Shown here: positions 1 to 6,974 of the stretch, one piece after another
Layout of the letters: every line of letters begins with the position of its first letter
Numbering within the stretch: position 1 is the first letter of the stretch
Assembly (NCBI GenBank): GCA_024278215.1
Contig: JAJRTR010000057.1
Location: forward strand, 1 to 6,974
DNA from: a bacterium
GTDB taxonomy: Bacteria > UBP15 > UBA6099 > JAJRTR01
Reading direction: 5' to 3'
DNA length: 6,974 nt
The notes under the pieces: model-generated
Database searches by the model: none
What the model was told of the DNA's origin: nothing
Seen by the model: only the letters and a program-made list of their open reading frames with translations
Made by a program: the position numbers and the translations under genes

Positions 1-166
1 AAATTATGTTCGTAGCGAGGTCGAGCGAAATTGTTCAGAGCAAGGCGGAGGTGTAAAATCCTCGCAGGCGTACTTGTAGAGTACGTCGAGGACGATTTCG
101 CGCCGACAACGCAGCTATGGACAATAGCAGCCGACCGCAGTTGAATCATAATTTTGCGAATGGCTC
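1..166 (+). repeat. Dispersed foldback repeat, copy 1 (left end cut by window)
   Basis: This copy matches the complete one at 1459-1637. Base 1 corresponds to base 1471, so about 12 bases of its left terminus lie outside the window. Its centre is TTGTAGAG with the 3-nt middle at 76-78, followed by an 88-nt right arm ending in GGCTC at 162-166. Relative to copy 2 it has a single-base deletion near 38-40 (AGAGCAAGG against GGAAGCAAGG). Its inner stem, CCTCG (60-64) with CGAGG (87-91), is the best paired of the three copies. It ends 7 bases beyond the stop codon of the leftward tctC gene, so a tctC transcript would run straight into it. No convincing reading frame lies within it. Confidence 0.85.
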
Positions 167-1358: not shown

Positions 1359-1386
1359 ATTATATATTATACTCTAGTGATGTTGA
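1359..1386 (-). promoter_or_regulatory. Putative leftward promoter for tctC
   Basis: On the minus strand, TCAACA (1386-1381; 4 of 6 consensus) is followed after 16 nt by TATAAT (1364-1359; 6 of 6). A second TATAAT lies at 1371-1366 without a good -35 partner. Transcription would start near 1352, giving a leader of about 170 nt that contains the possible sORF. The -35 element shares bases with the rightward promoter, so the two would compete. The surrounding DNA is AT-rich, which raises the chance of accidental -10 matches. Confidence 0.35.
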
Positions 1387-1412
1387 CATACTACCAAGCA
1401 AAAATATATAAT
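1383..1412 (+). promoter_or_regulatory. Strong sigma70-type promoter for the merR-like/gyrB/gyrA unit
   Basis: A perfect -35 TTGACA (1383-1388) and perfect -10 TATAAT (1407-1412) are separated by 18 nt. Predicted transcription start is near 1419. No other pair in the window matches the consensus as well. The resulting leader would be about 310 nt to the MerR-like start at 1728, and it would include the whole 179-bp foldback repeat. Confidence 0.7.
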
Positions 1413-1458: not shown

Positions 1459-1637
1459 GAGCCAGTTGCAAAATCATGTTCGAAGCGAGGTCGAGCGAAA
1501 TTGGTCGGAAGCAAGGCGGAGGTGCAAAATCCCCGCAGGCGTACTTGTAAAGTACGTCGAGGATGATTTTGTGCCGACAACGCAGCTGTTGCCAATTGCA
1601 GCCGACCGTAGCCGAATCAGAATTTTGCAATTGGCTC
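1459..1637 (+). repeat. Dispersed foldback repeat, copy 2 (complete, 179 bp)
   Basis: This is the complete copy. The ends are near-perfect inverted repeats: GAGCCAGTTGCAAAAT at 1459-1474 against ATTTTGCAATTGGCTC at 1622-1637 (15 of 16 positions pair). Aligning the 88-nt left arm with the reverse complement of the 88-nt right arm without gaps gives 51 of 88 identical by my count, around a 3-nt centre (GTA, 1547-1549). The innermost stem is CGTACTT/AAGTACG. Other paired blocks include GGTCG (1489-1493), AATTGG (1499-1504) and CAAAATC (1526-1532) with their partners in the right arm. No transposase is encoded, as expected for a non-autonomous MITE-like element. AAAC occurs on both sides (1455-1458 and 1638-1641), a possible 4-bp target duplication, but this is uncertain. 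It sits between the strong promoter at 1383-1412 and the MerR-like gene. Confidence 0.88.
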
Positions 1638-6814: not shown

Positions 6815-6974
6815 GAGCCAATTGCATAATTAAGTTCGAAGCGAGGTCGAACGAAATTATTCAGAAGCAAGGCGGAGGTGCAAAATCACCGCAGGCGTAC
6901 TTGCAGAGTACGTTGAGGAAGATTTTGTGCCGACAACGCAGCTGTTGACAATTGCAGCCGACTGTAGCCGAATC
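6815..6974 (+). repeat. Dispersed foldback repeat, copy 3 (right end cut by window)
   Basis: It begins with the same terminal motif, GAGCCAATTGC, and runs to the window end, which corresponds to base 1618 of copy 2; about 19 bases are missing. Over the shared 160 bases it aligns with copy 2 without gaps, with about 15 differences by my count (about 91% identity). The 3-nt centre falls at 6903-6905, exactly 88 bases from the left end, as in copy 2. It has the same orientation as the other copies and lies 39 nt after the gyrA stop. Confidence 0.88.

Follow-up and report, generated by a model that had tools for sequence, protein, structure and literature searches.

A 179-bp foldback MITE of a UBP15 bacterium and its apparent hairpin relatives in many other phyla

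The element at positions 1459-1637 of the window, by which is meant the whole 6,974-nt stretch of DNA analyzed here, is a real foldback MITE, small and non-coding, that inserts between genes. It is very probably a non-autonomous element, probably mobilized in trans, and represents, as family I, an old superfamily of many phyla whose fold is probably selected. The usual view is that a bacterial MITE originates anew in its own lineage, when a resident IS loses its interior, and disappears together with that IS. In the present case a single hairpin design, internal loop included, turns up in many phyla; the ends vary, and in three genomes they agree with those of resident IS1380 elements. If this is true, some bacterial MITEs are old, independent lineages that switch transposase, and the conserved fold provides a testable handle on why. 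What is new, provisionally, is the cross-phylum conserved fold with exchanged ends; the element itself is a MITE.

Form and Fold of the Element

The features discussed below are as follows.

1459-1637, plus strand: family I hairpin MITE, complete copy (match of covariance model R2 at 1458-1638)
1459-1474, plus strand: left terminal inverted repeat GAGCCAGTTGCAAAAT
1622-1637, minus strand: right terminal inverted repeat, reading GAGCCAATTGCAAAAT on the minus strand
1455-1458, no strand: AAAC, target duplication of 4 bp on the left side (supported by family-wide statistics)
1638-1641, no strand: AAAC, target duplication of 4 bp on the right side (supported by family-wide statistics)
1479-1490, plus strand: left strand of the conserved internal loop, TTCGAAGCGAGG (C28, G29, C33, G34, and A35 of alignment A1 kept in 23-24 of 24)
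1606-1616, plus strand: right strand of the conserved internal loop, CCGTAGCCGAA (G170, C171, A172, G173, and G176 of alignment A1 kept in 23-24 of 24)
1538-1560, plus strand: apical stem and loop GGCGTACTTGTAAAGTACGTCGA, the seed motif of the cross-phylum search
1-166, plus strand: copy 1, its left end lost at the contig start
6815-6974, plus strand: copy 3, its right end lost at the contig end
1216-1261, plus strand: truncated copy of family II, a relative of ~200 bp whose ends, TAACCCGCATATTTCACCA, are IS1380-like
1383-1412, plus strand: sigma-70-type promoter match, 12 of 12, TTGACA-18-TATAAT (consensus match only)

A sequence-only reading had described positions 1459-1637 as a single imperfect palindrome of 179 nt, with two 88-nt arms around a 3-nt center (GTA), and recomputation confirmed each of its figures: 51 of 88 arm positions are complementary in ungapped alignment, including 15 of 16 at the ends and 7 of 7 in the innermost stem. 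Base-shuffled controls pair at only 21.8±4.1 positions, with a maximum of 38 (n = 5000). Folded as single-stranded RNA, the element forms a single extended hairpin with a folding energy of -86.1 kcal/mol (z = -9.7), and all shuffled sequences fold less well. The same reading had assigned 88-nt arms to the two partial copies, and this is confirmed by gapless alignments in which copy 3 (6815-6974) matches 1459-1618 at 91% and positions 39-166 of copy 1, within an ungapped match at 39-179, align to 1510-1637. Both copies are incomplete because the window is the whole of its contig. A search of the Rfam covariance models with the element matched no family.

Copies, Edges, and Target Sites

The host genome is a 4.55-Mb draft of 207 contigs, of which the window is the complete contig C27. 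BLAST against this genome returned at least 40 long copies (≥172 bp) with identities of 91-100%, and exact matches to the core motif number 165 over the whole genome. Copy statistics come from 1.78 Mb, or 39% of the genome, a non-random sample in which many contigs were picked for containing matches; it holds 169 family I matches, 94 of them full-length. Full copies measure 173-180 bp and all start with GAG and end with CTC, to within a few bases. The proposal that the palindrome is a dispersed element is borne out by these 94 copies, and the two outcomes opposed to it, a lack of other copies and edges lying off the inverted repeats, are excluded, as there are more than 100 copies and their edges coincide exactly with the repeats.

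A perfect 4-bp repeat flanks 50 of 90 family I copies, compared with 1.2 expected, and there is no excess of flanking repeats at lengths of 2, 3, 6, or more. The duplicated 4 bp are AT-rich and otherwise unspecific, with C and G favored just outside the duplication; AAAC flanks the window copy on either side. The search for empty sites suggested by the sequence-only reading gave two precise ones. In both cases the copy had inserted into a member of a different dispersed repeat, and members of that repeat lacking the insertion have a single TTGT or a single GTAA. By script-made ORF calls, 88 of the 94 full copies are intergenic in a genome that is ~85% coding. The reading as a foldback MITE is thus upheld by multiple copies, intergenic location, inverted repeats at exact edges, 4-bp duplications, and two empty sites. 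The repeat that supplied both empty sites is ~200 bp long, carries a GGCGGGGTCACCGTACCCCGCC hairpin, and was matched 37 times in the 1.78 Mb (e.g. L037:9772-9966); a fragment of it lies in the window at about 1267-1334.

These target sites also bear on the kind of transposition involved. REPINs and REP sequences, like family I, are short repeats that fold and whose amplification is believed to occur in trans, and a REPIN-like element moved by a RAYT (Y1 HUH) transposase would likewise be short, palindromic, intergenic, and present in many copies. Single-strand HUH transposition, however, makes no target duplications, whereas family I has clear 4-bp duplications and empty sites; REPINs and REP also have other ends and tags. 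A 4-bp duplication favors a DDE transposase and argues against movement of the HUH (REPIN) type, which is here very improbable.

Short forms (39-153 bp) keep both ends and little of the interior, and 7 of 29 have a perfect 4-bp duplication. Either they are deletions that followed insertion or movement is possible without the interior. Such forms are located, for example, at L240:16952-16997, L057:13840, L290:8146, and L056:10641.

Relatives in Other Phyla

A pattern search of the GTDB collection with the apical stem gave matches in many genomes, among them Deltaproteobacteria, Gammaproteobacteria, Nitrospira, Acidobacteria, and Aegiribacteria; the majority of the matches fall within palindromes of 175-225 bp ending CTAGCCYGSATWTYTCA. 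As a guard against circularity, only elements from outside the phylum and genome of the window, 22 in all, went into covariance model R2. This model recovers the window element with the same edges (1458-1638, E = 1.5e-18), together with sibling copies in 390 kb of the host genome. An initial model, R1, which includes the window element as a row and whose E-values are rough, matches 34 of 290 sampled genomes at E ≤ 0.001, under 32 family labels; 25 of the 34 match at E ≤ 1e-8.

Some genomes have a shorter form in which only model positions ~34-153 are matched and the ends are quite different. In several distant genomes, shorter forms to which just the inner part of the model matches are neighbors of tRNA genes or lie between two of them (L316:1501-1626; L320:1161-1280 and 1501-1621; L319; L311). 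Phage and viral matches to GAGCCRRTTGCAAAATT were considered as relatives and are taken as chance: the one pair examined further, L218/L230, proved to be a single conserved phage gene, and on none of the 19 contigs do two inward-facing ends stand an element length apart. A plasmid search with a relative found nothing. A literature search with exact sequences, within limited literature coverage, found no paper carrying them, and the hairpin superfamily across many phyla is apparently unnamed, its novelty being provisional.

Conservation of the Fold

Among 24 divergent members, 89.9% of cells pair, and of 60 stem pairs 45 have compensatory double changes. Covariation scores 0.536, compared with 0.184±0.011 for shuffled and 0.07-0.12 for slid controls. 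Because the outer stem helped pick the elements and the apical stem seeded the search, the interior stems were also scored separately, giving 0.655 compared with 0.221±0.016 shuffled and 0.08-0.14 slid. Unpaired G29, G34, and A35, opposite G170, C171, and A172 in alignment A1, are unchanged in all or all but one of the rows (23-24 of 24), and the pairs next to them vary. This cross-phylum covariation and the conserved internal loop support the other suggestion of the sequence-only reading, a family of structured hairpins, and the pattern points to selection on the folded single strand.

The main alternative is that pairing is kept by mutation bias alone, in which template switching during replication copies one arm to the other, so that the pairing of a plain MITE would have no function. 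Template switching in quasi-palindromes is established, and the internally deleted forms with both ends and a duplication suggest that the interior may be dispensable for movement. Within the host genome, moreover, compensatory change barely exceeds the slid control (25 cells compared with 15-22), although this comparison adds little because the copies are too alike; RNAalifold gave a poor consensus on the within-genome alignment, and pairs of the consensus fold were counted instead. Correction between arms should, however, erase mismatches, yet the asymmetric loop is kept in nearly all members across many phyla. Such a loop is not easily explained by arm-to-arm correction, although a double-strand binding site at that position could explain it, and on balance mutation bias appears an unlikely sole cause.

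A broader proposal, which we hold only tentatively, is that a hairpin module comprising the apical stem and the asymmetric loop occurs domain-wide and persists by swapping its ends for different transposases, with the folded strand having a selected function as RNA or in an amplification step through single-stranded DNA.

Exchanged Ends and the Mobilizing Enzyme

The ends of family I in the genome of the window are GAGCCAATTGC, and those of relatives elsewhere are mostly CTAGCCYGSAT... This difference across the superfamily suggests that the moving enzymes probably differ too. In three genomes (L189/L195, L327, L331), the ends of the relatives match those of IS1380-family transposons (DDE_Tnp_1_4, PF13701); these are three cases rather than a survey, and 13 of 22 hairpin-bearing genomes have no PF13701 match. 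A Bryobacterales genome contains two intact IS1380-family transposons ending CTAGCCTGCATTTCTCACCAG and TAACCCGCATTTCTCACCAG, like the hairpins there, including the CTAGCCTGCATTTCTCACCA-ended hairpin of the IS1380 transposase L195. In genome G277, the IS1380 right end is TTAGCCCGCATTTCTCACCA and the hairpin end CTAGCCCGCATTTCTCACCAG; in G210, the corresponding ends, the former from an IS1380 fragment, are CTAGCCCGGATAATTCATAAG and CTAGCCCGGATAATTCATGAG. Flanks of the CTAG-ended relatives give 1 direct duplication, 1 inverted, 20 ambiguous, and 13 neither, as a duplication is indistinguishable from an inverted end when CTAG is itself palindromic.

The host genome also contains a second family of the same superfamily. 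Family II is ~200 bp long and has IS1380-like ends, TTAACCCGCATATTTCACCA, with NTAN adjoining; 62 matches, 22 of them full copies, were found in the 1.78 Mb (e.g. L038:13252-13458 and L052:10867-11065). Its flanking 4-mers (3 direct-only, 0 inverted-only) fit 4-bp NTAN targets, and an intact IS1380 from the same order has an end, TTAACCCGGATATTTCACCA, that matches family II.

For family I, the transposase gene flanked by the same termini that the sequence-only reading had proposed to look for was not found. In the 1.78 Mb (39% of the 207-contig draft), no transposase-like ORF lies between paired GAGCC ends 0.25-5 kb apart, as judged by the start of each longest ORF. A search of the host genome with PF01609 (DDE_Tnp_1) gave three matches, none with family I ends: one has CCAATRCCGTTCAGTTAAGC ends, another, located where a contig stops, lacks matching ends, and the third has no GAGCC end, so that these were rejected as partners. 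PF13586 (DDE_Tnp_1_2) matched nothing in the host genome, and PF13701 matched a single C-terminal remnant of an IS1380-family transposase. This remnant (G000:C44:16102-16254; L194) lies 145 bp from an ordinary MITE copy, to which the nearby GAGCC end belongs.

The presence of this remnant, the IS1380-like ends of the superfamily elsewhere, and those of family II in the same genome are what would be expected if an IS1380-type transposase with drifted end recognition moved family I, its autonomous copy having been lost or left unassembled. Family I ends do not match IS1380 ends, however, as they carry three extra nucleotides (GAG); homology assigns the remnant an end of a different type; the target is not NTAN but any AT-rich 4 bp, with C and G on its flanks; and no IS1380 with family I ends was found. 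We therefore consider a drifted IS1380 enzyme doubtful.

In the preferred explanation, family I is probably mobilized in trans: a DDE-type transposase supplied from elsewhere would recognize the GAGCCAATTGCAAAATT ends of a non-autonomous foldback MITE, and a 4-bp staggered cut at AT-rich intergenic sites would lead to insertion with 4 bp duplicated. Family I would then be the local representative of an old superfamily, shared by many bacterial phyla, with a common long hairpin, in which the asymmetric internal loop and the apical stem are conserved, and differing ends. As the covariation suggests, the fold is probably selected, either in RNA, when intergenic regions are transcribed, or in single-stranded DNA that is extruded.

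Comparison with Known Hairpin Elements

ERIC is a full-length imperfect palindrome of 127 bp, mostly intergenic, present in up to hundreds of copies in Enterobacteriaceae and Vibrionaceae and treated as a MITE (PMC10969869). Family I resembles it in being a full-length imperfect palindrome, mostly intergenic and in many copies. The target of ERIC is TA. Family I differs in its greater length, 4-bp duplications, and relatives in many phyla, and the two are set apart by length and description. The Chunjie MITE of Geobacter uraniireducens (235 bp) has terminal repeats and direct repeats (PMC10969869) and, as compared by description only, resembles family I in size class and in both kinds of repeat. 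The review of these elements (PMC10969869) makes no mention of IS1380.

Genomic Setting and a Possible Role as RNA

MITEs with hairpin transcripts are well known, including Correia, ERIC, QMITE, and Chunjie, and transcripts of the hairpin MITE Correia/NEMIS of Neisseria are cut by RNase III (PMC10969869). Correia/NEMIS may serve as a model for transcribed family I copies, although it is a Neisseria element with other ends, compared with family I by analogy. In the window, the perfect sigma-70 match lies between a TctC-like gene and the HTH-gyrB genes, and the element is inserted downstream of it. With this match upstream and the HTH gene and gyrB downstream, the window copy may be transcribed as a hairpin in the leader of an HTH-gyrB transcript, which is a suggestion only.

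It is conceivable, though short of probable, that the hairpin acts as RNA, so that copies in leaders or between genes set mRNA stability, processing, or termination, as reported for Correia and ERIC. The strong fold with its covariation, the position of the window copy, and the literature parallels (PMC10969869) are consistent with such a role, as is the orientation of copies between codirectional genes, 34 of 51 reading with the genes and 17 against. That bias is modest, however, and based on script-made ORF calls, and there is no terminator-like T run at the window element.

Many contigs of the draft start or stop inside a family I element (e.g. C8:40, C11:22, C20:40, C27:1, and C27:6974), so that the element is probably behind many of the assembly breaks in this genome, where its copies also adjoin core genes such as gyrB.
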